NCBI GenBank assembly: GCA_022827625.1
Contig: JAJEIE010000027.1
Span: 300,827 to 364,826, forward strand
From: Candidatus Poribacteria bacterium
GTDB taxonomy: Bacteria > Poribacteria > WGA-4E > WGA-3G
Length of the DNA stretch: 64,000 bases
Direction of reading: 5' to 3'
Notes under the pieces: model-generated
Told to the model about the DNA's origin: nothing
The model's input: only the letters and a program-made list of their open reading frames with translations
The model's database searches: none
Part shown: positions 45,380 through 62,381 of the stretch, one piece after another
How positions within the stretch are numbered: the first letter of the stretch is position 1
Layout of the letters: each line of letters starts with the position of its first letter
Position numbers and translations under genes: made by a program

Positions 45380-45742
45380 CTAATCTCCCCATATAATTGC
45401 TTGAACTATGTTAGAGACTGTAACCAGTGTTTCCACAGACATCGCACACCAAAAGACAGCTCTTCTGGCTCGCCAATCCAGGCTCTTAACTTGATCTGCC
45501 TGAATAAAACCGTGTACCTCCAGTCCGCTCGGAATCTCAATCTCAAAGCGGCCCCCTCTCTTAGTCCGAGTAATTGGACAGACAATCGCTACATTCTTCA
45601 CGCGGTTGAAATTCCATGAGGAGAGGACAAGAGCAGGTCGCCAATCCCAAATCTCTCTTCCTGCTTGTGGGTCGAAGTTAATATCTATTACATCCCCTCG
45701 TATTGGGATATAGGTTGAACCGTCTTGGGCTGATGTTACCAT
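45380..45742 (-). CDS. MazF/PemK-type endoribonuclease toxin
   Basis: 120 aa. RGDVIDINFDPQAGREIWDW starts the SH3-like barrel with the family arginine. RPALVLSSWNFN and VAIVCPITRTKRGG follow, and GFIQADQVKSLDWRAR holds the last conserved strand. MazF toxins cut mRNA at short motifs. The ATG at 45742 overlaps the upstream gene by 7 bp (stop 45736-45738), the usual antitoxin-toxin coupling. Confidence 0.88.
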   Translation of the reverse strand: MVTSAQDGSTYIPIRGDVIDINFDPQAGREIWDWRPALVLSSWNFNRVKNVAIVCPITRTKRGGRFEIEIPSGLEVHGFIQADQVKSLDWRARRAVFWCAMSVETLVTVSNIVQAIIWGD

Positions 45743-46059
45743 ATTTCTTTGCCTACTGCGGGTCCTGTGTCTATTTCCCCGGAATCTGCGTTCTCGGTTT
45801 CTTCAGCTAATAGGTCTGCGAGTTTTACGAGTGGGAGTCCGGCAGGTCGTCCCACAGGTTCTGGTCGATCTGGTTTGGGTGAAGTAGAATTACCAGCCTC
45901 TTGTTCTGCGTTCTCGGTTTCTTCAGCTAATAGGTCTGCGAGTTTTACGAGTGGGAGTCCGGCAGGTCGTCCCACAGGTTCTGGTCGATCTGGTTTAAGA
46001 GATTCACCTACCCTTACGCCGCGTATGTCTGGGGTTAACGGTTTCTTCCAGACTTTCAT
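45736..46059 (-). CDS. putative antitoxin with an exact internal duplication
   Basis: 107 aa, 7-bp overlap with the MazF toxin. AAGGAGGA precedes the ATG at 46059. No AbrB/MazE or RHH fold is recognisable. Residues 22-51 and 62-91 are identical 30-residue segments (KPDRPEPVGRPAGLPL, then VKLADLLAEETENA), 40 residues apart, each rich in Pro then helical and acidic. The acidic helix looks like a toxin-masking segment. Naming it an antitoxin rests on position only. Confidence 0.65.
   Translation of the reverse strand: MKVWKKPLTPDIRGVRVGESLKPDRPEPVGRPAGLPLVKLADLLAEETENAEQEAGNSTSPKPDRPEPVGRPAGLPLVKLADLLAEETENADSGEIDTGPAVGKEIW
45785..45996 (-). repeat. 92-bp perfect direct repeat within the antitoxin gene
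   Basis: 45785-45876 and 45905-45996 are identical over 92 bp, offset 120 bp. Since the DNA itself is identical, not only the protein, the duplication is recent or kept homogeneous by conversion. The 120-bp period keeps the frame. Confidence 0.95.
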
Positions 46060-46245
46060 ATCTGATTCCTCCTTACATTTTTCCATGAGATCCCTACAGT
46101 TTGGATTAGGTATTGTAACTGGCACTGAGAGACAATGCTTAGTATACCATACCAAAACATCTGAAGCAAGGAAATGCTCGTAAAAAAATGTGGGGGTCTT
46201 GTTGTCGGTGCGGTTAGAAACGCCACTGACAAGAAGGTATATTTG

Positions 46246-47856: not shown

Positions 47857-47922
47857 TATGACTCCTTTTTTGGTAATGATTGTATGCCAGATAACGATTT
47901 AAGTCAATGTAACTTTGGGCGT

Positions 47923-48145
47923 GGGTGTGTAAAGTTTTTGTCACGAAGCGATCTAAGTCGTCTGCCCTGCAAACTCAACTTTTCCTATAAAGTACTGTTC
48001 GCGTGGGTCCCCGTGCCCACTCGCGAATCCGGGGGACTCTCAAGAGAGGCGAGGCACAAAGCCGAAGCCCTCCTCGCTGAACCGGTGTTTGTCATCTCAC
48101 TTGAGGCACTTCAGCACTAATTTTGACAAAATATTTACACATCCC
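47923..48145 (+). repeat. L/R-ended repeat element, copy 2 (left edge of the defence island)
   Basis: Left end GGGTGTGTAAAGTTTTTG at 47923-47940, right end CAAAATATTTACACATCCC finishing at 48145. The 180-bp interior is a coding-like piece (FAWVPVPTRESGG, then EALLAEPVFVISLEALQH and a stop) that looks like the tail of some unrecognised gene. It lies 134 bp before the first island gene. The interior is unrelated to copies 1 and 3. Confidence 0.65.
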
Positions 48146-48159
48146 TATTTCAAAAAGCA

Positions 48160-48189
48160 TTGGCATCCATTGCTAATATGGTGTATAAT
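48160..48189 (+). promoter_or_regulatory. probable promoter of the 789-aa defence-candidate gene
   Basis: TTGGCA (48160-48165) and TATAAT (48184-48189), 18 bp apart, about 90 bp before the start codon at 48279. Confidence 0.6.
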
Positions 48190-48278
48190 AACTTATCAGA
48201 TATTTCACTGATTTGTAGAAGCAGTTTCAACCACAATTATGCCAACTTTATAACATATTTCACGCTTCGGATCTTTTT

Positions 48279-50648
48279 ATGACACGCGGAACCGTCAAGG
48301 TCACACTGAGACCTATCAAATTAGCATTTCTTGTTAATCCTAACGATAGGGAATCTCTCCTGAAAGCCATAGAAATTAATACATTTTTATGGGGTGGTAC
48401 ATATAATCCAATTATTCCCACCTACGAGCGGATACCTTCAGCATGGAAAGTTCCTCCGTACGATAACCCAACTGCTAAGAGCGTTGTTTCAGGATATTTA
48501 GATAATTTTGACCCAGACTATGTAGTTCCAATGGGCAAATGTGCTGGTTATTCTCTTGATGTTGGTTATCGCGAGAGAATTGATGACGTTTCAGAAATTC
48601 TTGCACAAGTTGAAAAGAGGAAAGCCCCCAACTACGGAATTGGTCTTTTTGAGATATTAAATCATTTCTTTCAAGAGGAACTTAAATTCCAACGTCGGTA
48701 TCCAGAGGAAGAGGATATATGTGTCCCCCGCTTTAATACCGACTTTACTCTTTTTTTTGCGAGTGTTTTTGGGGTGCTGCCTAAAAATATTGACAAGGTT
48801 TTTTGGGAGAGCTTTGCAGAGGCTTTAGATGCAAAAAAAATAGACTGTTCAGCTTCAAACTACACAGAGTTTTTTAATCGTAACAAACTATTTTTAAGAC
48901 GTATGACGGAGCTCTATCTTGGATCCAGCGGTCGTCAAGGAAAACTGCGTATCTTTTTTTTGGATGCGACTAAACCTCTTGATATTATGGATTATTGGAA
49001 TCTGCGGGCCGTTGGTTGGGAAGTGTTTCCTGTTCCCAAGCAATTTACGAAATCCGACAAAACACAAACATCTATACTGAATTTTATTCAGGAAAAATGT
49101 TTATCTCACGTCCCAAATCTTGAATTCTATCGCAAGACTACGATTCTTAAAAGCCGTTCTATATCCGAGTGTGAACACAGACACTTTCTGGATTCGCTCG
49201 AGGACTCGAAAGTAGTATCTCAAACTCAGTACCCACGAATATGGGATGAGTCAGCGAGAGCAGATGACTATGTTGAAAGTTGTACCTTGATAGCTGATAG
49301 AGCTGAACATGATGTATCAACAGATCAGGAACCAATTCGTTTTAAAACTCTAGATCCGAAGTTCATCGGACCTTTTTTCGGACTTTCTAAACCAATATTT
49401 GCAAATGAAATTGAGTGGCGACTGTCTGACGATAAAATTATTTTCGCGGAAGTGATTCCCGAAGGAGATAGCAAGCAAGCATTCTCTATTGTTGTAGAAT
49501 CTATTGGACTACGACTACATGATGGAATGCGTATCTTCAAGAATGGATTGGTTTATTTTTCTTGCAGCTCAGAACAAAGTCTATTTTTAAGAGATCCGCA
49601 CGCTGAGGGGGTATTTACGCAATGGCTGGAGTCAAAAGATTGGACAGTCAAACCTTCGCCTCCTGGTCGTATCGCCCAACAAATGTTGCAGCAGCTTCAA
49701 GGAATTAGGGGGACTTGGATTTTGGCAAGCGAAGGAATTATTCAACTGTTAGGTAAGATGAACCGCAGTGATGGGAAATTTCTTTCGGCAGAATTCGTTC
49801 GGGACAAAATATTTAGAGAAATTGCCAATGAAGAAAGAACGCTTAGGCGAAAGGGAGAAGATATACTTCATCATCTGATTGCGAAAAAGGTTTTTCAGTT
49901 AGGGATGAAAATCCAGTGTCCAGTATGTACAAAACATTCGTGGTATTCTGTGAAAGGAAACGATTACGAACTACAATGTCCACAGTGTTTAACGCCATTT
50001 TCTTTTCCTTCTGATTTCCAAAAGGTTAAATGGGCATACCGAACAATCGGTCCCTTTAGTTCATCGAACCAGTCTGATGGAGCATATACTGTGATTCTAA
50101 CGCTTCGTTTTTTTTCTAACTTTCCATGGTATAACGGAAAAAAAACTCCACTCATGAGTTTTACGGCAAAAAAAGGGAAATTGAAAATAGAAGCAGATCT
50201 TGCTTTGTTTTTTCAAGCGTCAAATTCTCGACATTCTAAAATAGAAATCATTTTCGCTGAGTGTAAGACGTTTAATGCCTTTGAGAAAAAAGATGCTAAT
50301 AGAATGAAAGATTTAGGTAAAGCATTTCCCGGGGCAATCCTTGTTTTTGCAAAACTGGGAAAGTCATTAGATAGGAAGGAAAAAAAGGTCCTGCGTTCTA
50401 TAGTAAATCACTCTCGGAAAAACAGAAAGAATAGTCGTCCGTTTAATCCCATTCTAATACTTACAGGAATAGAACTGATCTCAGAAGCACATTTCACAGA
50501 TACTTGGAGAAGGTCCGGGGGGATCCATACGAGATTTGCCAATAGCAGCACATTATCAAGCCTCCTTGAACTTTGTGATTGTACACAACAGATTTACTTA
50601 GACATGGATCCTTGGGATCAGAGCTTAGAAGATGATCCAGAAACCTAA
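48279..50648 (+). CDS. unrecognised protein with zinc ribbon and PD-(D/E)XK-like nuclease signature
   Basis: 789 aa, no signal or membrane segment. The N-terminal third (RPIKLAFLVNPNDRESLL, FLWGGTYNPIIP, about residues 10-50) looks like a conserved alpha/beta domain I cannot name. About 545-575 is a zinc ribbon, C547-x2-C550 and C567-x2-C570. From about 630 a restriction-nuclease-like core follows: D640 (EADLALFFQ) and E661-C-K663 (IIFAECKTF), then a predicted alpha helix. The order zinc ribbon then nuclease core suggests DNA recognition and cutting. AT-rich codon use compared with the neighbouring sulfatases fits transfer. First gene of the defence island, with its own promoter. Confidence 0.7.
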   Translation: MTRGTVKVTLRPIKLAFLVNPNDRESLLKAIEINTFLWGGTYNPIIPTYERIPSAWKVPPYDNPTAKSVVSGYLDNFDPDYVVPMGKCAGYSLDVGYRERIDDVSEILAQVEKRKAPNYGIGLFEILNHFFQEELKFQRRYPEEEDICVPRFNTDFTLFFASVFGVLPKNIDKVFWESFAEALDAKKIDCSASNYTEFFNRNKLFLRRMTELYLGSSGRQGKLRIFFLDATKPLDIMDYWNLRAVGWEVFPVPKQFTKSDKTQTSILNFIQEKCLSHVPNLEFYRKTTILKSRSISECEHRHFLDSLEDSKVVSQTQYPRIWDESARADDYVESCTLIADRAEHDVSTDQEPIRFKTLDPKFIGPFFGLSKPIFANEIEWRLSDDKIIFAEVIPEGDSKQAFSIVVESIGLRLHDGMRIFKNGLVYFSCSSEQSLFLRDPHAEGVFTQWLESKDWTVKPSPPGRIAQQMLQQLQGIRGTWILASEGIIQLLGKMNRSDGKFLSAEFVRDKIFREIANEERTLRRKGEDILHHLIAKKVFQLGMKIQCPVCTKHSWYSVKGNDYELQCPQCLTPFSFPSDFQKVKWAYRTIGPFSSSNQSDGAYTVILTLRFFSNFPWYNGKKTPLMSFTAKKGKLKIEADLALFFQASNSRHSKIEIIFAECKTFNAFEKKDANRMKDLGKAFPGAILVFAKLGKSLDRKEKKVLRSIVNHSRKNRKNSRPFNPILILTGIELISEAHFTDTWRRSGGIHTRFANSSTLSSLLELCDCTQQIYLDMDPWDQSLEDDPET

Positions 50649-50733
50649 CCCCCAGATATGTGTTTGTAGTAACGGTGGATCTGACGAATAGTCCAAACTC
50701 GTAGTCTTTAACACGTTGATTGAGCAGAAATTG

Positions 50734-51348
50734 TCAAAATTTAATCCTTTGAAATGTTTGCATGCGAGGTCGGCGAGTTTCCTTATCTAACATCCAGACT
50801 TTATAGATTTGATTTTGATCCAACGGTCTTATAAGATGGAAATTAAGGAGTGTTTTAATACGAGTCACCCAATTAATCATCATCGCTTCATAGCGGTCGT
50901 AGTCCGAGTAGTCTATACCTTTCCCATAAGGGTTTTTGGCATGTAGCATATCACCGCATTGACCATGTGCTTTAATCAGTTCATCACGTTTCATGAACCC
51001 TGATTTCAATGGGACAAATTCACCTATTCGAGAATCGTCTTTTGCTTGTATCTCAACTATAGGTTCAGGATAGAATTTAGGATTTAATTTTTCTATATCC
51101 CGTAGTATATCTTTAGGATGATAGAGTTTTTTGAATTTTTTTAGATTTTCCTCAAAGAGAGGTTTATTAGCAGCTAAAGATCCAAGCGCGATTAGTTCGG
51201 TAATCATACGCACCTGAAGTGCCATTGACTCAATTTGAATGCCCGTATACTTCATGTTAATCTTTTTGGATATTAGTTCCTCAATAACATCTGTTCTGAA
51301 TACGATTTCTTCCATAATAGTAAGATATGCTTGTTTGTCTGGACTCAT
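50734..51348 (-). CDS. unknown 204-aa protein of the defence island
   Basis: Mainly helical and hydrophilic: an N-terminal helix region with IQIESMALQVRMITELIALG and SLAANKPLFEENLKKFKKLY, then DILRDIEKLNPKFYPEP, and a C-terminal helical part (YEAMMINWVTRIKTLLNFHL). No catalytic motif is evident. The start is uncertain: ATG 51348 is used, but a TTG at 51369 with GGAG between them is possible. It lies downstream of the restriction-modification gene on the same strand, 97 bp away, and may belong to it. Function not known. Confidence 0.55.
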   Translation of the reverse strand: MSPDKQAYLTIMEEIVFRTDVIEELISKKINMKYTGIQIESMALQVRMITELIALGSLAANKPLFEENLKKFKKLYHPKDILRDIEKLNPKFYPEPIVEIQAKDDSRIGEFVPLKSGFMKRDELIKAHGQCGDMLHAKNPYGKGIDYSDYDRYEAMMINWVTRIKTLLNFHLIRPLDQNQIYKVWMLDKETRRPRMQTFQRIKF

Positions 51349-51445
51349 AATTTCAATATAGCTCCTCAAAGTATGAAATACCCTCTTTATTTTTTTCGTT
51401 TAATTTTTAATACATGCCAATCCTTGAAGACCGAAGAAGTCCGAT

Positions 51446-54400
51446 TCATACCCCATTCCACAAAACCGCATCAATCTCCCCCATAACCCCAAGCGTCTCC
51501 GCCACAGCTACCAGAATCGCACGATACCGCTGGACATCTTCACGCCGCAATTCCACCCCGCGCCGATCCCGCAACCATTTCTCACACACCCGATACGAAC
51601 CAATTTCATACTCCCACACCCCAACAGGTACATCCGTGAAATATTGAGACGTATTAATCCAAACCCGTCCGTCCAAATAATGCACCTGTCCGACAACCCT
51701 ATCTCCTTCACCCTCAAACCGATGGCGTGGTGGAACTGACCCATCTTTCAAAAGGTGCGCGTCAATCAACCGCTGCCCCAACGCTGCGAGCGTGCGGAAC
51801 TGCGCAATATCGCGTGGTAACGGAATACGCGGGAAATCGTATTTCAAAAAATCGTAGTACCGTTGGCGGTAGGTCGGACTGGACAGCACCGCATAGATAT
51901 AGGCGAGGATCTCCTCCGATGAAACACCTTCGGGTAGGTTAAACGGCTCAATTTGTGGAAGTGCCAACGCCTCCGAGAGCGCAGTAAGAAAGGCAGGCTT
52001 GAAATTGAGCGAACGCTCCGTCTCAAGTCCCAATTCCGCTGGATCTGGGTATAGGTAGAGCGGAAATACATGGGTAGGCCCATCTTTGTTTGAGATGCAA
52101 TTGCCATCGATAATTCGGTTGGTAACAAAGGCGTGCTGCCATGTGCTTGCACTTCTGAGGCTACGGTGTGTGCAAAGGGCAGGATTTTCTTCCTGCAGAT
52201 AAGGCATAATTAAAGGACGGGGAGCACAGTGAAAACCACGCGATTGTCCAGTATAATAAGTCCAGCGTGTATCATAAGGACGATAAGTTATAGGTTGGGT
52301 GTGCTGTTCAACATCTGGGTGAGTCCGAAGATCCGCCTGGGCAAGGTGAACCTTCCAGTCCTGGGTGTCTTTTCGCAATTTGTATTTCTGGCGGGCTTCA
52401 TCTTCAGAAAGCGAAACAAAATCTTTTACAGTTCTATGTAACTGCTCAGCAGTCCAATGGATCGTCAGTTTATCGCGGGCTGTGAGAATTCCAATTGAAC
52501 TGGTCTGAAAAATATCGGTAATTTTCTTCGATTCTTTTTCATATTCTGCTCGCGCTTCCACCTCCTGCGGTGTAAAATAATAGTACGGTGATTTTGGTTG
52601 AAATGCACACCAGTTATTGGTTTCGACATTGATCTCGGAAAGTGCGTTGTATTTCTCCTCACGAAATCCCCAAAGATCAGCATAAGAGATCTTTGCCGGT
52701 GCGGGATTGTTCGGTTCTTTTACACATAAGAGAATAGTGACTCCTTGCTTGATGTCAAAGACGTTTTCGTCAATTTCCGTCTCCGGAGCAATTTCCCCGA
52801 TTCTGCTACCACCATGTAAATTGAAACAATAAATAGCATTGAAACTTTTCATTAGGGATTGCCTCATTCTGCGAAAAGTTACTCCGCGAAGAAAATTATT
52901 ATTGACAATATATCCAATGATGCCTTCACCATTTTTATCAATTCGCCACTGTGCCCAACGGATAAATTTCACATAATCGGCTTGAAGAAATTTCGTCTGA
53001 TCTTTAATTCCCAATAATTTTCCATCTGTTGGTTTATAATCTTCAATAAGTTCTCCGATAAAAGTCAACCTGTTTCCTATACTGCTTGGATTCGCTGAAT
53101 CTTGTGGATATGGAGGATTGCCAAGAATAACCAGCAGCGGTTCGTCTCGCTTTACCGACAACGCCGCATTCGCCTCATCAGAGATAAACTCCGCAAAAGG
53201 TAACGGGGGCTGCATCTCCTCCGGTTGTTCCAAAGTGTTCGTGAGGTAGATACCGAGGCGTTCATCCGCACGCCATCCTTGCGATTGTAAAAACAAACCC
53301 AACTTCAAATGTGCGATCGTATAGGGTGCAACCAGCAGCTCAAACCCAAAAATCCGTCTGACCAGATCGGCGTTGACATACGGGGCCCACTCCGCAGTAC
53401 CGTACGTTTGCGTTACAGATTCTTGGATATGCTCCAACACCGTCAACAAAAAACCACCCGTCCCCGTCGCCGGGTCAAGGATGAGTGTATTGTCATCAGC
53501 GAGCCCGTCCCGTCTGTTCAATTCCGTTTTCAACAGACTGTCCACAGACCTGACGATATAGGAGACAACCTGTGGTGGTGTGTAGTAGACACCGCGATCA
53601 ACGCGACGCTGCGAGTCGTATTCAGTGAGGAACGTCTCGTAGAAGTAGATAATAGGATCTTGGAGGTGATTCCGCGCAGCAAACGCCGTGCGGAGCATCT
53701 CCGTCGGAACGTTTCGGAGGAGTGCCGCAATCTCGTCCAGAATATAGGTGACGTTCGTCTCCAATGTCGGTGAAGCGATATGATGAAAGAGTTGGACGAG
53801 GAACGGGTTTGATCGCGGAAGTGCCTCCGCAGCCGTATGTCGCGAGAAGTGCGTCGCATTCGGGAGTGTGCAGCGCGCCGCAAACAACCCATAAGCGAGC
53901 GTCTGTGCATACATATCCGCAAAATCGTCAGGGGTCAATGTAGACAGGAGGAGTTCCTTGAACGCCGAGTACATCCGATAAATATCGTTACTTTCATCAG
54001 CGAGTGTCGTGGCGACCTGTATTTGTAGTTCCCGCGTCCGTCTCGCAAGGTATCTCGCAAGTGCTTCTGGCGTGGCAATCTGAATAGGTCCAGCGTTTAG
54101 AAACCTTTCCAACAACGTCTCTAAATCTTCAGTTCCTGTATCAACCCGTGCCTCCGCACGCAGCCGCCCCTCTGTCCACAACTGGAAATCGACGAAATTC
54201 GTGAGGATAAAGTTATCAAGGTTTTCGGTAAAACGCGCGTTTTGTTCCGATGCGTGTCCGGTGAGATTGTTCAGGTCTCTACGATATGCCTCCGCCTCAA
54301 TATAACCGATGGGCAGTAATCCGTCCATGGCAACGAAATCCGGTCTACCAATCTGATCTAATCGCCTCGGTTCTTGGACGAACCTTATTGTGTTTCTGCG

Positions 54401-54535
54401 AAAATAGTCAACGGAGAGTTCCTCAAGGAAGGCTTGGAGGTGTGGGAATAGCGAAAGTTCTGGGGTTGCTGCTGCGCTCTCTTGTGTATGGCGTATCTTC
54501 TGTAGATAACGGTCCCAATGTGTTTGAAAGTTCAT
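51446..54535 (-). CDS. type ISP/IIG-like restriction-modification protein
   Basis: 1029 aa, single chain. N-terminal nuclease-like domain with RPDFV (D66) and GYIEAEAY (E80-A-E82). Helical linker to about 310. N6-adenine methyltransferase with SAM motif I DPATGTGGFLLTVLEHI (D354 area) and motif IV NPPY (about 472). C-terminal ISP-type target-recognition part ends the protein (AYIYAVLSSPTYRQRYYDFL, DGRVWINTSQYFTDVP). No helicase domain, so closer to type IIG enzymes than to classical ISP ones. The expected ExK lysine is a Glu, which could weaken cleavage. The ATG at 54535 replaces an upstream TTG lying in repeat DNA. Confidence 0.88.
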   Translation of the reverse strand: MNFQTHWDRYLQKIRHTQESAAATPELSLFPHLQAFLEELSVDYFRRNTIRFVQEPRRLDQIGRPDFVAMDGLLPIGYIEAEAYRRDLNNLTGHASEQNARFTENLDNFILTNFVDFQLWTEGRLRAEARVDTGTEDLETLLERFLNAGPIQIATPEALARYLARRTRELQIQVATTLADESNDIYRMYSAFKELLLSTLTPDDFADMYAQTLAYGLFAARCTLPNATHFSRHTAAEALPRSNPFLVQLFHHIASPTLETNVTYILDEIAALLRNVPTEMLRTAFAARNHLQDPIIYFYETFLTEYDSQRRVDRGVYYTPPQVVSYIVRSVDSLLKTELNRRDGLADDNTLILDPATGTGGFLLTVLEHIQESVTQTYGTAEWAPYVNADLVRRIFGFELLVAPYTIAHLKLGLFLQSQGWRADERLGIYLTNTLEQPEEMQPPLPFAEFISDEANAALSVKRDEPLLVILGNPPYPQDSANPSSIGNRLTFIGELIEDYKPTDGKLLGIKDQTKFLQADYVKFIRWAQWRIDKNGEGIIGYIVNNNFLRGVTFRRMRQSLMKSFNAIYCFNLHGGSRIGEIAPETEIDENVFDIKQGVTILLCVKEPNNPAPAKISYADLWGFREEKYNALSEINVETNNWCAFQPKSPYYYFTPQEVEARAEYEKESKKITDIFQTSSIGILTARDKLTIHWTAEQLHRTVKDFVSLSEDEARQKYKLRKDTQDWKVHLAQADLRTHPDVEQHTQPITYRPYDTRWTYYTGQSRGFHCAPRPLIMPYLQEENPALCTHRSLRSASTWQHAFVTNRIIDGNCISNKDGPTHVFPLYLYPDPAELGLETERSLNFKPAFLTALSEALALPQIEPFNLPEGVSSEEILAYIYAVLSSPTYRQRYYDFLKYDFPRIPLPRDIAQFRTLAALGQRLIDAHLLKDGSVPPRHRFEGEGDRVVGQVHYLDGRVWINTSQYFTDVPVGVWEYEIGSYRVCEKWLRDRRGVELRREDVQRYRAILVAVAETLGVMGEIDAVLWNGV

Positions 54536-54760
54536 ATTTTTCTTCGTAATCGGGCTTACAAAGCCCTCCCACAATTTATTGGACAAGCTGTGATGTCAGT
54601 GCGGAAAATATTGTATGTTTCAGTGAGATTCTCTAACCTCTGCATTATATCCTTTCTGGATCTTCTGTGCAAGGTCTTTTGTCATAGTTTTGGGCGTTAT
54701 GTTGGGTTACAAGTTATGGGTTGTGGGTTATGGGTAGCAAAGATGGATTTGTCAACATCC

Positions 54761-54790
54761 TTGATTTTTCAATAAGAGGGGTGGTATAAT
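54761..54790 (+). promoter_or_regulatory. promoter of the MNT-HEPN gene
   Basis: TTGATT (54761-54766) and TATAAT (54785-54790), 18 bp apart, 85 bp before the start at 54875. Confidence 0.65.
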
Positions 54791-54874
54791 ATGAATTTAC
54801 ATGAGTTCGATTAAAAGTAGTAGGCACAGGCTGTGAGTTCTCTGCAACAGGTAGGTTCCTTGTAAGGAGAGACA

Positions 54875-55654
54875 ATGGATAACAAATTCATTTCAATCAT
54901 GACAGAGCGCATCGTGCGCGACTTTGATCCTTTGCAGATTATCCTCTTCGGTTCGCAGGCGCGAGGCGACGCAGATCGGGATAGCGATATAGATCTGCTT
55001 GTGATTTTTTCGGAGCTCACGGATAAACGGAAAACTGCCATTGACATTGGGCGCGCGCTGGCTGATTTACCTGTGGCAAAAGACATTATTGTATCAACAC
55101 CGAAAGAGTTAGAACGCGGCCGCCCGCGGATCGGCTCCGTGTTGCGGTATGCTCAACAAGAGGGTAAGGTCCTTTGGAAGAGTCGGAGCGCGGCGGCACA
55201 ATATGATACACCCAACAAGGAGATAAAGTCCGCTATGGCAACAGCTGATCGCCTTGCAGACACCGCCCGCTGGCTCCGCTATGCGGAAGAAGACTTGATA
55301 ACTGCTGAAACCTATTTACAGGATCCGCGCGTTCCACCTCGCCAATCCTGTTGGCATGCCCAACAAGCCGCTGAAAAAGCTCTCAAGGCGGTATTAATCT
55401 TCTTGCAGATCGATTTTCGGAGAACGCACGACTTGAATGTTCTACGAGATCTGTTGCCTGAAAGTTGGCACCTTAAAACCGCGCTGCTAAACTTGGAGGA
55501 CCTAAACAGATGGGCAGTCGCAGCCCGCTACCCGGAAGATGGACAAGAAGCCACGGAAATAGACGCATCCGAGGCTGTTGAACAAGCCCGTGCTGTGTGG
55601 ACAGCTGCATCTACGGAGCTCACACAACACGGTTTTCTTATTGAGAAAGCCTGA
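54875..55654 (+). CDS. fused MNT nucleotidyltransferase-HEPN protein
   Basis: 259 aa joining two parts normally encoded as separate antitoxin and toxin genes. Residues about 1-105 are a minimal nucleotidyltransferase: LFGSQARGDADRDSDIDLLV with the G-S and D-x-D catalytic signature. Residues about 125-250 are a HEPN domain: RWLRYAEEDLITAETYL, RQSCWHAQQAAEKALKAVL (an R-x4-H is seen) and FRRTHDLNVLRDLL. In known two-gene pairs MNT adds AMP to HEPN RNase and silences it. An in-frame internal ATG at 55235 (residue 121), with AAGGAG at 55217-55222, could give HEPN alone. AAGGAG precedes the main start. Confidence 0.85.
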   Translation: MDNKFISIMTERIVRDFDPLQIILFGSQARGDADRDSDIDLLVIFSELTDKRKTAIDIGRALADLPVAKDIIVSTPKELERGRPRIGSVLRYAQQEGKVLWKSRSAAAQYDTPNKEIKSAMATADRLADTARWLRYAEEDLITAETYLQDPRVPPRQSCWHAQQAAEKALKAVLIFLQIDFRRTHDLNVLRDLLPESWHLKTALLNLEDLNRWAVAARYPEDGQEATEIDASEAVEQARAVWTAASTELTQHGFLIEKA

Positions 55655-55742
55655 TGATTCGTTGAAAAAGTAGTTGACAACTACGACCATTTCATGTTGC
55701 TGAATTACCATTTTAGTGATGAATTAGAGGATATGAAAAATT

Positions 55743-56726
55743 ATGGCGAACGTTCAGACATACTTCAATAAATTTCATGATACTATCAGAAGAAGTTACG
55801 ATGATAATAGCACCTTACGGCAAAAGAGAGATTTACTTTTAGATGACTTACGTGGGGGTTTACGAAGGTATGCCCAAAACCAAAATGTAAGAATCCCAAG
55901 ATTTGAACACTTTAATCAGGGAAGTTACGCGATGGGCACAGGTGTTGAACCTCTCCGAAGCGAAGACTATGATATTGATGTGGGGCTGAATTTTCATCTC
56001 TCAAAAAATGACCATTCTTCCGTTGAGGTTAAACAGTGGGTTTATGAGGCCTTGCGAACTGGGAATCGGACGGTAGAATATAAACGGCCTTGCGTGAGAG
56101 TGCAGTATCACCGGGCAGGTGAGGAACTCTATCATATTGACTTGGCAATCTATTCAGCAAATACCTATAATTGGGACAACCGAACTTATCTGGCGAAAGG
56201 CTTTTTAGGTTCAGCCCCAGAGAATCAGGTGTGGGAAATCGCTGAGCCCCAAAAACTGGTAGAAGTCTTCCAGCAAAAATTCCAGAATCAAGATGGGCAC
56301 CGAGAACAATTCAGGCGAGTTATACGGTTCCTGAAAAGATGGAAGGATGTTAACTTCTCAGCAAATGGAAATGGACGGCCAACAGGAATCGCAATGACAG
56401 CATGTGCTCACAATTGGTTTAAGATTGGGACACGTTATAATATTCCTGATGGGAAATATTACTATGACGATTTAACAGCACTCAAAAATTTGGCTCAAGC
56501 AATCATTAATCAGTTTGATTGGTGGACAAGTCGTATGAGTGTTCATCTGCCTGTTCATCCGTACAACGAACTATTTAAAAAGATGAGTGATAGACAGATG
56601 GGAAACTTCAAAAGTAAACTTGAAGAATTCAGAGACGCTTTGAGTCAAGTGGAGTTGACTGTTGACACATTAACGTCTTGTCAGACTTTACAACTCGTTT
56701 TCGGGGATGGTTTTCCGACCCCATGA
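55743..56726 (+). CDS. CBASS cyclic-oligonucleotide synthase (CD-NTase)
   Basis: 327 aa of the cGAS/DncV-like fold. The active site reads G60-S61 (NQGSYAMGTG), D77-x-D79 (EDYDIDVGLN) and third acid D133 (YHIDLAIY). These are the residues CD-NTases use to make cyclic di- or tri-nucleotides on phage infection. Downstream QFRRVIRFLKRWKDVNF is the conserved helix after the palm. The stop overlaps the effector ATG (56723, ATGA), so the two are translationally coupled. No ubiquitin-like, TRIP13 or HORMA gene is nearby, so this is a minimal (type I) CBASS. Which nucleotide it makes cannot be read from sequence. Confidence 0.87.
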   Translation: MANVQTYFNKFHDTIRRSYDDNSTLRQKRDLLLDDLRGGLRRYAQNQNVRIPRFEHFNQGSYAMGTGVEPLRSEDYDIDVGLNFHLSKNDHSSVEVKQWVYEALRTGNRTVEYKRPCVRVQYHRAGEELYHIDLAIYSANTYNWDNRTYLAKGFLGSAPENQVWEIAEPQKLVEVFQQKFQNQDGHREQFRRVIRFLKRWKDVNFSANGNGRPTGIAMTACAHNWFKIGTRYNIPDGKYYYDDLTALKNLAQAIINQFDWWTSRMSVHLPVHPYNELFKKMSDRQMGNFKSKLEEFRDALSQVELTVDTLTSCQTLQLVFGDGFPTP

Positions 56727-57904
56727 TTGGTTTTAAAACAATGAATAGTAAAGAGAAATCGAAACCTAAATTTAACTCCGGAAATGTGCCACAGCATACT
56801 CGCCTGAAATTATGGGTCAAAGCAGCTGGCCGGTGTGAGTTTCTCGGATGTAATGAACCCGTCTGGCGTAATAACCTGACGTTAAGTGACAAAAACTTCG
56901 GGGAAGTGGCACATATTGTTGGATCCAGCGAAGATGGTCCTCGTGGCAGCGAAGAATCAGTGGATTTACGAATTGATTATTCCAATCTCATGCTTTTATG
57001 TCAACGATGCCATAAGGAAATTGACGATGACCCTGACAGATATCCAACCGAGTTGTTACGTCGGTGGAAACAGGAGCATGAGAAAAGAATTGAGATTCAA
57101 ACAAACTATCCAGAGGAGATTCATAAGTCAACAGTCGTGCTGTTCACAGTAAAAATTAAAGACAGGATTCCTCGAATTAACCATGAGGCTTATCGCAATG
57201 CAATGTTCCCGAAATATCCAGTCGATGAAGGGATTAAGATTGAAATACCTGATTTTGACCGGTATGGCGATGAAGCTGAATGGAGCACTTATGCGAGAAC
57301 TATTGAAAGAAAAATCAATACACGTGTTGAGGAAGGAATAGACGAGAAAAAGATCAAACATTTCTCTGTATTCGCCATTGGACCTATGCCGCTGCTTATG
57401 TTTCTGGGTAAATGTATCGGGGATACCATACCATCAGATTTATACCAAAGTCATAGGAACATCAAGGATACAAGTCAAACATGGTCGTGGCAGGTAGAAG
57501 GGCAGGAGATGCAAACCTCCTACATTGTGAACCCCATTAAGTTCGTGGAAAACAGTGAAAAGGTCGCAATTATATTAGCACTAAGTGACACAATCGGTGA
57601 GGACAAATATGCTAATTTCGTTGACGATACTTTTAGCGTTTATGAGATCACTATCGAAAATCCTTCCCCGCACTTTTTGAAAAATCGCAAGCAGCTTGAA
57701 TATTGCAGTTATGAGTATCGGAAGTTACTGAATCGGGTGCAATCTGTACATGGACATCGCTGCAAAGTTTTTATTTTACCAGCAGTTCCTATATCAATTG
57801 CGATTGAATGTGGACGGGTTTTACTACCAACAAAAGACCCCGAAATTTTCGCCTGCGAATATTATGATAAAGAAGGGTTTCGTAAGGTTCTGAAAATAAA
57901 TTGA
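56723..57904 (+). CDS. cap5: HNH-SAVED CBASS effector (Cap5-like)
   Basis: 393 aa. N-terminal HNH nuclease (about 25-120) with C38 and C43, AHIVGSSEDGPRG (H64), N88, and CQRCH (C93, C96, H97). C-terminal SAVED domain (about 140-390) with FAIGPMPLLMFLGKCIGDTI and a last-strand region VPISIAIECGRVLLPT; this domain binds the cyclic nucleotide and switches on DNA cutting. The ATG at 56723 overlaps the CD-NTase stop; ATG 56741 is another candidate. Translational coupling and the domain pair match known CD-NTase/Cap5 operons. Confidence 0.88.
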   Translation: MIGFKTMNSKEKSKPKFNSGNVPQHTRLKLWVKAAGRCEFLGCNEPVWRNNLTLSDKNFGEVAHIVGSSEDGPRGSEESVDLRIDYSNLMLLCQRCHKEIDDDPDRYPTELLRRWKQEHEKRIEIQTNYPEEIHKSTVVLFTVKIKDRIPRINHEAYRNAMFPKYPVDEGIKIEIPDFDRYGDEAEWSTYARTIERKINTRVEEGIDEKKIKHFSVFAIGPMPLLMFLGKCIGDTIPSDLYQSHRNIKDTSQTWSWQVEGQEMQTSYIVNPIKFVENSEKVAIILALSDTIGEDKYANFVDDTFSVYEITIENPSPHFLKNRKQLEYCSYEYRKLLNRVQSVHGHRCKVFILPAVPISIAIECGRVLLPTKDPEIFACEYYDKEGFRKVLKIN

Positions 57905-58007
57905 TTTTAGTAAGCTGCTTGACCGTGTGGAGGCACTGAGATAGGTTTAATACTTCTTGGCAACATGGATATTTTAGTGAAAGGGTCCAACTAACGAAAG
58001 ATTACAA

Positions 58008-58892
58008 ATGGCAAACAAAATTATAGACGAACTGATTGAGGAGCGAATAGATATATTTCGTTCAGCATTTGCGGTGCGTGCAAAAACTCTCTTTCACGAC
58101 GATGAGAAACAAAACAAACTCAGGCATACCGGAGAATTTGGTACATATCGTGAAGCTATCGTTCACGATTTCCTTCATTCTTTCCTGCCACAGCGACTGG
58201 CTATTGACACAGGATTCATTGTGAACGCGTTAGGAGATGTAAGTGGGCAGATAGATCTCGTTATTTACGATCCATCGCTTACACCACCATTGGAGTCGCA
58301 GAATCGACAGAGATTCTTTCCTATAGAAACAGTGATAGCTGCTGGAGAGGTGAAGTCTAATATGAACCGTGAGCAATTTAAGAATGCTCTTATTCGACTT
58401 GCAAAAGTAAAAGAGATGCGTTCAGCTGTGTCTGATGAATCGTCAGCGGCTGTAAGGTGGCATAGATTAGCAGAGGCAAAGTATAATCCGGTCCGGATTT
58501 CTTTCGATCAAGTGTTCACTTTTCTAATATGTAATCGTATTGATTTCCCATTGTGTAATACCTTTCCATCAACTCTGAACGAAATATATAAGTCCGTAGC
58601 TTATGCACATAGGCATAGTGCAGTGTTAAGCCTTGAAGACGGTCTACTCTTTTATATTGATCCAGATAATGAGACTTGCTCTTTTCCTATATCCACGACG
58701 GGGATAGAAAACAACCGAAACTATTGGGTTCACAGTCTTGATAACAAGTATGCTCATTTCAAGCGTTTCTGTTCAGATTTATTTTTCCATGCAGTGCATT
58801 GCACAGTAGGGTATGTCAACCTATTAAAGTATGCAAATTTCGGTAAGGATAAGATGAACTATTGGGTCGAGAAACCAAAGTCAAGCGAATAA
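58008..58892 (+). CDS. DUF6602-like nuclease candidate next to CBASS
   Basis: 294 aa, no signal. GEFGTYREAIVHDFLHSFLP (43-62) precedes a PD-(D/E)XK-like core: D83 (GQIDLVIYDPS) and E114-V-K116 (AAGEVKSNMN). The pattern matches the DUF6602 family as I know it. The rest is alpha/beta with FDQVFTFLICNRIDFPL. It starts 103 bp after the Cap5-like gene, same strand, so it may share a transcript. Whether it is an extra effector or an independent system is open. Confidence 0.65.
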   Translation: MANKIIDELIEERIDIFRSAFAVRAKTLFHDDEKQNKLRHTGEFGTYREAIVHDFLHSFLPQRLAIDTGFIVNALGDVSGQIDLVIYDPSLTPPLESQNRQRFFPIETVIAAGEVKSNMNREQFKNALIRLAKVKEMRSAVSDESSAAVRWHRLAEAKYNPVRISFDQVFTFLICNRIDFPLCNTFPSTLNEIYKSVAYAHRHSAVLSLEDGLLFYIDPDNETCSFPISTTGIENNRNYWVHSLDNKYAHFKRFCSDLFFHAVHCTVGYVNLLKYANFGKDKMNYWVEKPKSSE

Positions 58893-59064
58893 TTTAACGT
58901 CGACTTAATAATAAAAATACGCGTATAATCGTAGGTGTTTTGCTTGGATGTTTTCCTTAGGTAGAATGGTAAAGAACCAAAACGTTGTAATGCCATCGGA
59001 AATTTGGGCCACTGTCTAAACCAAGATTGTGATGCAATGACAATCTCATTGAAAGGAGCCTCCC

Positions 59065-59278
59065 ATGGAGGGCCAAACGAAGAAGGTTCACCCCTGAATT
59101 TAAGGAAACCGAAGTTGTTGTTGAGGTACTCAGCGGTCAAAGCTCACAAGGGGCACTGTGTCAACGACATAACCTCAGCGCAGAAGACCTCTCAAAGTAG
59201 AAACGCCACCTCCTTAAAAACACGGCGACCCTCTTTAAATCCGCTGATAAACAGTCCAAACCATCAGTAAGTCGATAA
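59065..59278 (+). pseudogene. IS3-type transposase OrfA remnant
   Basis: From 59078 the frame reads RRRFTPEFKETEVVVEVLSG, QSSQGALCQRHNLSAEDLSK, a TAG where homologues have Trp, then KRHLLKNTATLFKSADKQ. The matching start ATG at 59065 is in another frame, so there is a frameshift plus a nonsense change. This is the HTH OrfA of an IS3-family element. No OrfB, no inverted repeats and no intact IS are seen. It marks past insertion within the island. Confidence 0.8.
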
Positions 59279-59442
59279 CGATACTACTATTTTTAGAGTT
59301 CCTAGGGGTGACATGTTTCTAAAATCGTGTGTAAACAATCTACCAAATATTCCACCAAAGATGAAAATTGAAATAGGAACAACTGTGAAAAAGTAGTCGA
59401 ACAGTGGGCTGTCCACTTTCAAATGAGGAGTAAACTCAGTTT

Positions 59443-59498
59443 GTAGTCGTGCGATTCATCGCAAGGGAAACCCAAGACGCAATGAATTGCGCCACTAC
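59443..59498. repeat. inverted repeat, same family as at the hemH stop
   Basis: GTAGTCGTGCGATTCATCGC and GCAATGAATTGCGCCACTAC form the arms, each holding its own short palindrome (TGCGATTCATCGCA; CGCAATGAATTGCG). Together with 20986-21097 this is a dispersed family. The remainder of 58893-59552 has no intact gene. Confidence 0.7.
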
Positions 59499-59552
59499 GA
59501 ACTCCTATCAGTTTGGACGTGACACAGCACTAAATTCAAAATGGAGGTGTAA

Positions 59553-60458
59553 GTGGCATACGACAGCAAAAATCACCATTACGTTCCCAGATTTTATTTG
59601 AAAAACTTCGCTTATGACGAGGGTAAATCTCGGGTTTTCTCTATGAATCTGAAAAACAATATCCATAAGAACAAAATAAGTCAAATTTGCTCACAAAATA
59701 ATTACAATTCTCCGGAACAAGAAATTCTGCAAAGCAGATTTGAAAAGGTATTTGCGGATATATTAAAGGAAGTGATAGAAAGCCCTATGTCCCCAGATAT
59801 TGATCTTTCCCTAAGATTCTTGAAGTTTGTTGGTTTTATGTTAGGAAATAACATCAAAAAAAGAAAAAATCTGGCTGAATCAATCAGTTCATTTGAATTG
59901 CAAATAGAAGGGTTACATAATAATCACAAGATATTAATTGATGAGGACCATAGAAGTAGGTTTGACTTGAGTCTTGCTTTTTCTAATGCGTTCTTTAATG
60001 AATTCCGGAATTGGAATTTTATTCGACGTGAAATAGGAAACAAGCAAAAAGTTTTCATTACCAGTGACGATCCAGTTAGTATATTTAATCCCGAAAATTT
60101 GTTGGCTCCTACGTATATTGGTATTGAATGGAAAGAGGCAAAAGTGGAGAATTTTGGTGATACCATTATTTTTCGCGGTGAAAGGGGCATAAAAGCAGAA
60201 GCATCATTTACCCTTGAACGTATATCTTTCCAGAAAGATGTTATGATGATTTTTCCAATGACTCCTACCTCATGTCTTATTGGTTTTTCAGATAATAATA
60301 GGTACGCGAGGTTCACGGAAAGTCCCATGAAAAGTGACAACATTAATGATTTGATAAATACCATAACCTTCCGTTACAGCAATAAAGCTGCTTATTCACC
60401 ATCTAAAGAACGTCTAAAAGGAACTGTAACTCAACTTCCTAGAGTACTACCAATGTAA
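59553..60458 (+). CDS. DUF4238 domain protein
   Basis: 301 aa. HHYVPRFYLKNFAYDEGK (residues 8-25) is the diagnostic N-terminal motif of DUF4238. Later FITSDDPVSIFNPENL and MMIFPMTPTSCLIGFSDNN fit the family's C-terminal part. Role unknown; DUF4238 genes often appear in mobile or defence regions. It starts with GTG at 59553, with GGAGG 8 nt upstream. AT-rich relative to the core genes. Confidence 0.75.
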   Translation: MAYDSKNHHYVPRFYLKNFAYDEGKSRVFSMNLKNNIHKNKISQICSQNNYNSPEQEILQSRFEKVFADILKEVIESPMSPDIDLSLRFLKFVGFMLGNNIKKRKNLAESISSFELQIEGLHNNHKILIDEDHRSRFDLSLAFSNAFFNEFRNWNFIRREIGNKQKVFITSDDPVSIFNPENLLAPTYIGIEWKEAKVENFGDTIIFRGERGIKAEASFTLERISFQKDVMMIFPMTPTSCLIGFSDNNRYARFTESPMKSDNINDLINTITFRYSNKAAYSPSKERLKGTVTQLPRVLPM

Positions 60459-60545
60459 TGGAGGAGTTCTATTATTGGTTTTGGTTAAGTAGAAAGGAAG
60501 TGTAATGCCGCTGACTGGATGCTTGACCACGCAGGAGCTATCGAA

Positions 60546-61358
60546 ATGAATCTGATGAAACCAGAAGAAGATGCACAGGAATCTCTTATACAGGATTTTA
60601 GTCTGCCGGTGTTAGGTATTTTGATGAGCTCCGCTATTGGCGATCCAACGGGAATATCCGCAGCTGTCATCCCAATAATTGTCAGAGAAGTCATACGCCG
60701 AGTGATTTCACCTCTTACCAGCAGAAGTGAATCCAAACGGTTATATCAATGGGCGAAACAAGCTGTAGAGGGTATTGCGCAAAGATCAAAAGACGGTGAA
60801 GAATTTCGGAAGGATGGGTTCTTTGAGGAAACCCCTACGAATCGGTCTAACTTTGAAGAAGTTGTGGAGTCAACTTTGAAAAAGGTGATAGATACAACAG
60901 AGGATCCGAAAATAAAATTTATGGCGAATTTAACAGAAAATGTTCATTTCGATCAAGATTTAGATATAGATACATATCGCCAGATTTTAAAAGATCTTGA
61001 TGTACTCACTTATCGGCAGCTCTGTATAATAAGACTTGTAGTTCTATGCGAAAATCAGGAAGTAAATGTTCTTCGGATAAGTGAGGCGGATATAAAGTGT
61101 ATGTCTGAAAACGAGCGGACAAGATTTTATTCTATTGGTAGAGAGTTTGAAAAATTGGTGGATGATCACTACATGCAGTCGGTAGCTATGTTTAGAGATG
61201 AAGAAACTAATGAACCGTTATTGCAGTACCCAAGCGCGGTATATATTCCATCTTATACATACCGATTACATTCCTTAGCGAACCTAGATGAGATCCCAAT
61301 TGAAGATATTGAAAATACATTTTCAATATGGAATGTAAAACTGGAAAAACAGGTCTGA
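60546..61358 (+). CDS. unknown 270-aa protein of the defence island
   Basis: A hydrophobic stretch near the N-terminus (about 20-50: LPVLGILMSSAIGDPTGISA, AVIPIIVREVIRRVISPL) is followed by a helical, acidic body (SNFEEVVESTLKKVIDTTED, YRQILKDLDVLTYRQLCIIR). One short membrane-touching segment plus a cytoplasmic helical domain is a layout seen in some abortive-infection proteins, but no family is recognised. The ATG at 60546 is chosen because AGGAG lies about 8 nt upstream. Last gene of the island, 30 bp before the right L/R element. Confidence 0.55.
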   Translation: MNLMKPEEDAQESLIQDFSLPVLGILMSSAIGDPTGISAAVIPIIVREVIRRVISPLTSRSESKRLYQWAKQAVEGIAQRSKDGEEFRKDGFFEETPTNRSNFEEVVESTLKKVIDTTEDPKIKFMANLTENVHFDQDLDIDTYRQILKDLDVLTYRQLCIIRLVVLCENQEVNVLRISEADIKCMSENERTRFYSIGREFEKLVDDHYMQSVAMFRDEETNEPLLQYPSAVYIPSYTYRLHSLANLDEIPIEDIENTFSIWNVKLEKQV

Positions 61359-61388
61359 TCCTCAATGCTAATGATCTGTGTTGGAAAA

Positions 61389-61693
61389 GGGTGTGTAAAG
61401 TTTTTGTCAAAGCATTGATTTTTTTCTGAGGCCAGGTGTGTTTACATAGCACTCCAAATCAACGGTATGAATGCCTTAATGGCATTCTCCGGGAATGCGA
61501 GAGAAAGGCCCCATCTTTTTCTATAGACATATTGCTCCCTTGGAGCAAAGAGATTTCTTGATGGAGAAGAGTTCCTCACGCCAGCGGCGTGATATGTCTA
61601 TAGAAATTCCAATGCGAAAAATGCTGCACTCCAGCGGAGTGCTATGTCTTAGACTGCTTACATAGGAAACGCTGCCGAAATATTTACACACCC
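61389..61693 (+). repeat. L/R-ended repeat element, copy 3 (right edge of the defence island)
   Basis: Left end GGGTGTGTAAAGTTTTTG (61389-61406) and right end AAATATTTACACACCC finishing at 61693, with an inverted left-type end AAAACTTTGCACACCC at 61694-61709. The interior contains three short hairpins (61532-61642). It sits 30 bp after the last island gene. Same orientation as copies 1 and 2. Confidence 0.65.
61532..61642. repeat. three short hairpins with shared tail
   Basis: TTGCTCCCTTGGAGCAA (61532-61548), TCACGCCAGCGGCGTGA (61576-61592) and GCACTCCAGCGGAGTGC (61626-61642) are 7-bp stems with 3-nt loops. The last two are followed by ATATGTCTATAG or TATGTCTTAGAC; the first is preceded by the mirror CTATAGACATA, so it is inverted. 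Confidence 0.75.
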
Positions 61694-61727
61694 AAAACTT
61701 TGCACACCCGTTGGAAAATGAATTGGC

Positions 61728-61757
61728 TTTGCACAATTCTCCCTTTTGTGTTATGAT
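61728..61757 (+). promoter_or_regulatory. possible promoter of the DUF1156 remnant
   Basis: TTTGCA (61728-61733) and TATGAT (61752-61757), 18 bp apart, before an AAAGGAG site at 61769. Confidence 0.4.
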
Positions 61758-61780
61758 ACAATCCACTAAAAGGAGAAATT

Positions 61781-62005
61781 GTGACCTACCGCAAAAAACT
61801 GATTGAAGTTGCTTTACCCTTAGATGACATCAACCGCGAAGCTGCACGCGAGAAATCTATCCGCCACGGGCACCCTTCCACACTAAACCTCTGGTGGGCG
61901 CGTCGCCCCTGAGCTGCTTGCCGAGCTGTGCTATTTGCCTCACTTGTTGATGCCTCTTCCAATCACGGCGATCTCACCGAATTCAGGAGTCCTGATCATG
62001 AATAA
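61781..62005 (+). pseudogene. truncated DUF1156 DNA-methylase-type gene
   Basis: A GTG at 61781 with AAAGGAG upstream starts [20 protein letters not shown], then [15 protein letters not shown] and an in-frame TGA at 61910-61912. Reading on in the same frame gives AACRAVLFASLVDASSNHG, which continues the DUF1156 family pattern (WWARRPLAACRAVLFASLV), so the TGA replaces a Leu codon. The frame ends at 62005. All the methylase body is missing. Start signals are intact, so a 43-residue peptide could still be made. Confidence 0.8.
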
Positions 62006-62372
62006 AACGATTTCATTAGACGACCTGCCACGTCAAGTTGAAGACTTACTGCGAACAACTTGGGAAGGGAATGAGAGCCTTGTGCTTGAACAAAACGGAA
62101 AGCCCGTTGCCGCGATCGTTCCAATGGATGAGTATCGCAAATGGCATCCAGATGAGGACGAAAACACCTTCGCTTATGAACTTCCAGGGCACCTCCTTGA
62201 AGCGTATCATGGTTTATTGGACAAGAAATTTTCTACTGGACTGACGAAGAAGGAAGAAATTACGTTGTCGAAATTAGATCAGCAGTTGGATGGTGCAGAA
62301 GCGACGCAGCCACTTATACAATTTATGCAAAGACGCACTAAGGCACGAGACGAAAATTTGAGGAAGAAGTAA
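61998..62372 (+). CDS. Phd/YefM-like antitoxin, apparently orphan
   Basis: 124 aa. The first about 50 residues (MNKTISLDDLPRQVEDLLRT, SLVLEQNGKPVAAIVPMDEY) have the Phd/YefM DNA-binding pattern. A longer helical C-terminus (60-124) could bind a toxin. AGGAG lies 8 nt before the ATG at 61998. Start overlaps the dead DUF1156 frame. The next gene is a SIS protein, not a toxin, so either the toxin was lost or this is a solo regulator. Confidence 0.7.
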   Translation: MNKTISLDDLPRQVEDLLRTTWEGNESLVLEQNGKPVAAIVPMDEYRKWHPDEDENTFAYELPGHLLEAYHGLLDKKFSTGLTKKEEITLSKLDQQLDGAEATQPLIQFMQRRTKARDENLRKK

Positions 62373-62381
62373 ACCTATATT

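Follow-up and report, generated by a model that had tools for sequence, protein, structure and literature searches.

A candidate solo anti-phage nuclease with a zinc ribbon and a putative N-terminal sensor heads an inserted defence block in a Poribacteria genome

Can a single large protein that falls into no catalogued family act alone as an anti-phage nuclease? The question is raised by a gene in a 64,000-nt stretch of a Candidatus Poribacteria genome (the window), whose 789-aa product had been described in an initial annotation as a zinc ribbon followed by a restriction-fold core and as perhaps an undescribed defence system. The ORF at 48279-50648(+) is intact, with an ATG start and zero internal stops, and is present in one copy in its 5.0-Mb, 41-contig genome. 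Here we describe its setting, conservation, predicted structure and spread, and weigh the functions that these suggest.

Family searches

The protein had not been placeable in any family by inspection, and searches gave the same answer. No profile of Pfam, NCBIfam, PADLOC or PHROGs scored above threshold for the 789-aa protein, and searches of PDB sequences with the protein and with two family alignments, A1 (20 sequences) and A2 (78 sequences, namely the 789-aa protein and 77 homologues from a genome scan, with a mean column identity of 31%), returned no significant match. Zinc-ribbon matches to YnfU and Zn_ribbon_4 fell under the curated cut-offs, and matches among PDB sequences to DNA polymerase kappa and a de novo protein (E 0.06-0.12) were dismissed as chance. 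When the protein and 10 diverse family members were run against PADLOC, the only match was one weak BrxD fragment (E 0.0075); none of these 11 members matched the SduA (Shedu) or CARF profiles of PADLOC, and none had a Pfam match to SRA, EVE or another modified-base reader domain. No match to the family was found in phage records, and a DNA-level (blastn) search of 5,426 complete E. coli genomes with the Citrobacter member was likewise negative. Literature searches on the family returned nothing specific.

Genomic setting

The gene was thought to stand first in a defence island, and comparison with congeners bears this out. Since congener sequence to the left of the gene runs on to window 62373, the intervening ~14.4 kb are an insertion (Table 1), and the 789-aa gene is the first gene in it. 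The empty site is 143 bp in congeners G056 and G057, and the corresponding gaps are ~300-600 bp in G071, G078, G080 and G084. Located between a sulfatase gene and SIS-isomerase/nadD genes, the block has a GC content of 0.39-0.41 over much of its length, compared with 0.47-0.51 in most of the left flank. In addition to the 789-aa protein, it encodes a 211-aa protein without a match, a type IIG restriction-modification (RM) enzyme, a nucleotidyltransferase-HEPN fusion, a CBASS locus, a DUF4238 protein and others. The initial annotation had also given the gene its own promoter and no partner on the same strand. The latter holds, in that the nearest plausible same-strand gene begins only at 54875 and no partner is constant at homologous loci; for the former, a sigma-70-like match does lie ~90 bp upstream, but the promoter scan as a whole found 8 such matches against 6.5 expected and is thus not above chance.

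Several other genes in and near the block deserve mention in their own right. The CBASS locus (55743-58892) comprises a CD-NTase, a SAVED-HNH (Cap4-like) effector and a DUF6602/NucC-like PD-(D/E)XK gene, an arrangement in which one cyclase possibly serves two nuclease effectors. At 54875-55654, a single ORF joins an MntA-like nucleotidyltransferase to a HEPN domain, which in type VII toxin-antitoxin pairs are normally encoded by two genes; separate or similar nucleotidyltransferase/HEPN genes adjoin the family gene at loci L024 and L025. Two proteins of the block, at 50734-51369(-) (211 aa) and 60519-61358(+) (279 aa), have no Pfam, NCBIfam or strong PADLOC match. At 45380-46155 there is a MazF-like toxin gene together with an upstream ORF in which ~30 residues are duplicated by a perfect direct repeat of 92 bp (45785-45876 = 45905-45996).

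Table 1. Features of the 789-aa gene, its block and its distant relatives (window positions unless a locus is given).
Feature	Position	Strand	Basis
Inserted defence block, ~14.4 kb	47915..62378		congener homology ends at 47914-47919 and returns at 62373-62379
Sigma-70-like promoter match, TTGGCA-N18-TATAAT	48160..48189	+	11/12 consensus positions; consensus match only
Candidate solo defence nuclease, whole gene, 789 aa	48279..50648	+	intact ORF; AlphaFold2 pLDDT 89.7
N-terminal two-lobed alpha/beta (Rossmann-type) domain, putative sensor, residues 1-335	48279..49283	+	folded alone, pLDDT 91.6, pTM 0.91; role putative
WGGxYNPIIP motif, residues 38-47	48390..48419	+	W38, G40 invariant in 78 sequences; P44, P47 in at least 90%
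DxxDxWNLR motif, residues 235-243, where a second-lobe helix begins	48981..49007	+	D235, W240, N241, R243 invariant in 78 sequences; helix 233-244 in model
Middle region: mixed beta part ~336-440, helical, possibly winged-helix part ~441-535	49284..49883	+	secondary structure of model
Zinc ribbon CPxC-x16-CPxC, residues 543-577	49905..50009	+	C547, C550, C567, C570 invariant; sub-threshold matches to several zinc-ribbon Pfam families
PD-(D/E)XK nuclease domain, residues ~583-775	50025..50603	+	core order in model; Foldseek matches Cdn1, Card1, MspJI, EcoO109I, PaqCI
Predicted catalytic ExD, E638 and D640	50190..50198	+	invariant in 78 sequences
Predicted catalytic ExK, E661 and K663	50259..50267	+	invariant in 78 sequences
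Distant ~900-aa subfamily members	L139:2323-5037, L140:4188-6986, L141:3-2300	all -	same motifs

Conserved residues and predicted structure

Homologues in A2 share as little as 23% identity with the 789-aa protein, and 18 of its 789 columns are invariant (P12, W38, G40, P79, G165, D235, W240, N241, R243, C547, C550, C567, C570, G601, E638, D640, E661 and K663). The seven residues singled out beforehand from one sequence (the four cysteines, D640, E661 and K663) were correctly positioned and all fall among these 18, for which the chance under random placement is ~(18/789)^7, or <1e-11. The catalytic and cysteine residues are likewise invariant in the 20 sequences of A1. E638, which had not been named, is also invariant in A2 and makes the ExD...ExK site complete. 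In the N-terminal part, the most conserved motif is WGGxYNPIIP.

The AlphaFold2 model of the full protein, built with A2 as input, is confident (mean pLDDT 89.7, pTM 0.90). Residues 599-692 have the alpha-beta-beta-beta-alpha-beta order of a PD-(D/E)XK core (helix 599-614, strands 621-632, 635-646 and 655-663, helix 670-682, strand 687-692), with E638 and D640 in the strand at 635-646 and E661 and K663 at the end of the strand at 655-663; the conserved acidic residues and the (D/E)xK lysine typical of this fold are therefore found at core strands. When the full-length model was compared with the PDB using Foldseek, the top matches were Cdn1 and Card1, which combine CARF and PD-(D/E)XK domains (E 2.3e-4 to 1.9e-3, probability 0.84-1.00), followed by MspJI and, further down, EcoO109I and PaqCI. 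Because the whole-length TM-scores of the nuclease matches are low (0.09-0.19 on the query), what the predicted structure supports is the nuclease core and, in broad terms, a sensor joined to a nuclease; it does not support placement in the CARF family. Together with the invariant cysteines, the modelled core and these matches uphold the proposed order of a zinc ribbon and then a restriction-fold core.

Residues 1-335, modelled alone, alternate between beta strands and alpha helices and form two lobes. Against the PDB, this domain gave weak matches only, of the two-lobed binding or racemase type, the best being MntC (E 4.9e-4, probability 0.80), with glutamate racemases at a probability of at most 0.2; CARF and SAVED structures were absent from the 50 best matches. 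For these reasons, the domain as modelled is a two-lobed alpha/beta domain without a convincing structural relative in the PDB. Given that the invariant residues are located in a loop and where a helix begins, and that a solo nuclease must stay silent, we infer that it acts as a sensor.

Distribution and mobility of the family

One scan of GTDB genomes yielded 102 relatives, of which 80 loci were kept, 79 of them with an intact family ORF. The hosts belong to Poribacteria, Pseudomonadota (Legionella, Citrobacter, Shewanella, Psychrobacter, Rhizobium and Methylobacter), Bacteroidota, Planctomycetota, Chloroflexota, Acidobacteriota, Nitrospirota, Myxococcota, CPR groups and others, and 27 of 85 Poribacteria genomes have a match. 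A tree of 79 rows, built with a quick method, mixes phyla (10 changes for Pseudomonadota and 3 for Poribacteria). This is supportive of horizontal transfer, though not proof of it, as bins may contain foreign contigs. Isolated N-terminal fragments of 39-70 residues in other Poribacteria (G080:C1:3907143-3907259, G083:C1:1909207-1909320 and G036:C133:886-1095) are apparently decayed family copies and, on that reading of the sequences, a sign of rapid turnover.

Copies are also present on mobile elements. One is carried by a Photobacterium plasmid. IMG/VR gave no match to the single sequence, and a search with A2 found one relative in its viral contigs, in a Mu-like prophage (L102) with MuA (Pfam DDE_2, E 9.5e-38), a MuB-like ATPase and tail-type genes, where the family gene occupies an early-region cargo slot. 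Next to it in this slot is a DUF2971-like gene (L102:7072-7545(+), PADLOC candidate PDC-S31). Among the Burkholderiales, four close copies are solitary, each at its own chromosomal position, and this speaks for a gene that is complete in itself and independent of a housekeeping context.

A distant subfamily of ~900 aa has the same layout, with WGGRFNPII, DIVYFWNR, the zinc ribbon and AEVD...GEVK. One of these relatives (L139) lies within a type I RM operon with SoFic-like and AlbA-like genes. On a Burkholderia glumae plasmid (L142:6960-13779), a distant relative immediately follows three tandem tyrosine recombinases and a small ORF, possibly as a mobile cassette.

Gene neighbourhoods

Neighbours within 10 kb were named by reading their sequences and from Pfam and PADLOC tallies. 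Across the 79 loci whose family ORF is intact, no partner occupies a fixed place. The commonest recurring neighbours are hsdR (11 loci), hsdM (8), hsdS (6) and serine recombinases (6), followed by type III-like methylase, type IIG-like and AlbA (Schlafen-AlbA) genes (5 each), and GmrSD and AbiEi are among the Pfam matches of neighbour proteins. For hsdS (Methylase_S), ~7 of 50 loci have the gene at most 10 kb from the family gene, against ~0.5 expected, a figure that is an estimate and not a simulation (about two Methylase_S per ~4-Mb genome, 50 genomes counted). Neither a cyclase cluster nor a CRISPR gene cluster recurs among the neighbour genes of the 79 loci. Several loci, such as those of the Burkholderiales copies, are without a recognisable defence neighbour within 10 kb.

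Two genes of the block were considered as partners. The type IIG RM-like gene adjoins the family gene in five loci, four of them in Poribacteria, and most loci are without it, so that it looks like island company. DUF4238 genes (window 59553, the Photobacterium locus L021, L052 and L064) are too rare.

The family is thus stand-alone, mobile and found in defence islands, as is expected of a single-gene defence gene, and its homologues do not lie in a conserved housekeeping context. The initial annotation had listed two outcomes that would speak against it, a structure without a restriction fold around residues 630-700 and homologues mainly in housekeeping contexts; both were looked at and neither came true.

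Proposed function and alternatives

Our preferred reading, to which we assign a probability of roughly two in three, is that the 789-aa protein is a self-contained, trigger-dependent, single-gene anti-phage (or anti-plasmid) nuclease. Residue invariance, the predicted fold, the absence of a partner, horizontal mobility and the defence context form its basis; catalysis, DNA as the substrate, autoinhibition, the nature of the trigger and phage protection are what we infer from them. Within one polypeptide, the two-lobed sensor (1-335) would be followed by a middle region that serves as linker and DNA contact (336-535), by the zinc ribbon (543-577), which may help to stabilise the fold or to grip nucleic acid, and by a metal-dependent PD-(D/E)XK nuclease (583-775) with E638, D640, E661 and K663 as its active site. 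Presumably the nuclease would stay inactive as long as the N-terminal domain perceives no infection cue. That cue would be some feature of the invading DNA or a small ligand, for which the WGG and DxxDxWNLR motifs would form a binding site between the two lobes; once triggered, the nuclease would cut DNA, either that of the invader only or all DNA. A more specific proposal, that the WGG/DxxDxWNLR domain represents a new class of infection sensor in which a phage-induced nucleotide or metabolite switches on the fused zinc-ribbon PD-(D/E)XK nuclease, uniting sensing and killing in a single chain across many phyla, is offered tentatively, as we consider it rather less probable than its negation. 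Against the preferred reading count the loci that lack a recognisable defence neighbour and a published set of 24 transcription units with remote defence homology and low model scores, six of them with PD-(D/E)XK, of which only one protected (PMC13092281); PD-(D/E)XK homology alone therefore predicts protection poorly.

The main rival, which we regard as unlikely, is a modification-dependent (type IV-like) restriction enzyme in which the N-terminal and middle domains read modified bases of phage or other foreign DNA and the nuclease cuts it, with no need of a methylase partner or an infection signal. Such an enzyme would be encoded, as this one is, by a single gene with no constant neighbour and no cognate methylase partner; the modification-dependent MspJI is the next Foldseek match after the CARF nucleases, and RM genes are frequent in the neighbourhood. 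However, the MspJI match probably spans the nuclease core and not the recognition domain (148-183 aligned columns in most entries), and reader domains of the SRA, EVE or other kinds were not found by Pfam in the 11 members searched. This rival would equally make the protein a solo defence nuclease, minus the infection sensor.

We consider it improbable that the protein has a mobile-element or repair role apart from phage defence, as the nuclease of an integrative element or a toxin-like stabilisation factor. The plasmid and Mu-like prophage copies, the distant relative behind tyrosine recombinases and the solo copies away from recognised defence genes are consistent with such a role, but no mobility gene or antitoxin constantly adjoins the gene, and its enrichment near RM genes points the other way.

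Marginally less probable still is an effector of the Can2, Card1 and Cdn1 type, with an N-terminal domain that binds a cyclic oligonucleotide made by another protein, such as the CBASS cyclase encoded at 55743-56726: Cdn1 and Card1 do head the full-length Foldseek matches and the CBASS locus is 5 kb away, but the TM-scores of the CARF nucleases are low (0.15-0.19 on the query), the isolated N-terminal domain recovers neither CARF nor SAVED among its 50 best matches, cyclase clusters do not recur, and the CBASS proteins of the window match no neighbour proteins at other loci, for which reason dependence on the adjoining CBASS was set aside.

The family thus spans many phyla, keeps 18 residues without exception and has a confident model, yet is absent from the family and defence libraries searched. 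If the preferred reading of a solo anti-phage nuclease is correct, it would add a large, easily clonable, single-gene system, its N-terminal domain would be a new infection sensor whose trigger is open to direct search, and many "hypothetical proteins" of defence islands, plasmids and Mu-like prophages would gain an annotation.

Comparison with known systems

Shedu (SduA, DUF4263) is a single-gene PD-(D/E)XK defence protein and shares this design with the 789-aa protein, although the PADLOC SduA profile matches none of the 11 family members searched. MspJI-type enzymes are likewise encoded by a single gene and have a similar nuclease core according to Foldseek; the 789-aa protein is larger, has a zinc ribbon, and shows no match to their recognition domain. 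The type III CRISPR CARF nucleases Can2, Card1 and Cdn1, which include the best Foldseek matches, have an N-terminal alpha/beta sensor, a C-terminal PD-(D/E)XK domain and an ExD-type active site (E276/D278 in Can2; PMC7969007), as does the 789-aa protein by prediction. In contrast to them, it is twice as large, with a zinc ribbon and a middle region added, its N-terminal domain is two-lobed and gave no CARF match when searched alone, and its family has no recurrent CRISPR or cyclase neighbour.

Closest in kind, for the DS systems by description, are PD-T4, PD-lambda and the DS systems from functional and machine-learning screens, in which a single protein joins a PD-(D/E)XK core to unrelated, often unassignable domains (PMC9519451, PMC13092281). 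In one study, 11 systems had components that bind or cleave DNA, often resembling PD-(D/E)XK nucleases (PMC9519451), and 13 of 31 validated systems in another are of the solo PD-(D/E)XK defence kind with extra domains (PMC13092281). The suggestion of an undescribed system therefore stands for the family and its N-terminal domain, which are what is new here, but not for the kind, since a well-populated, validated group of solo defence proteins that join a PD-(D/E)XK core to unrelated accessory domains is already known.
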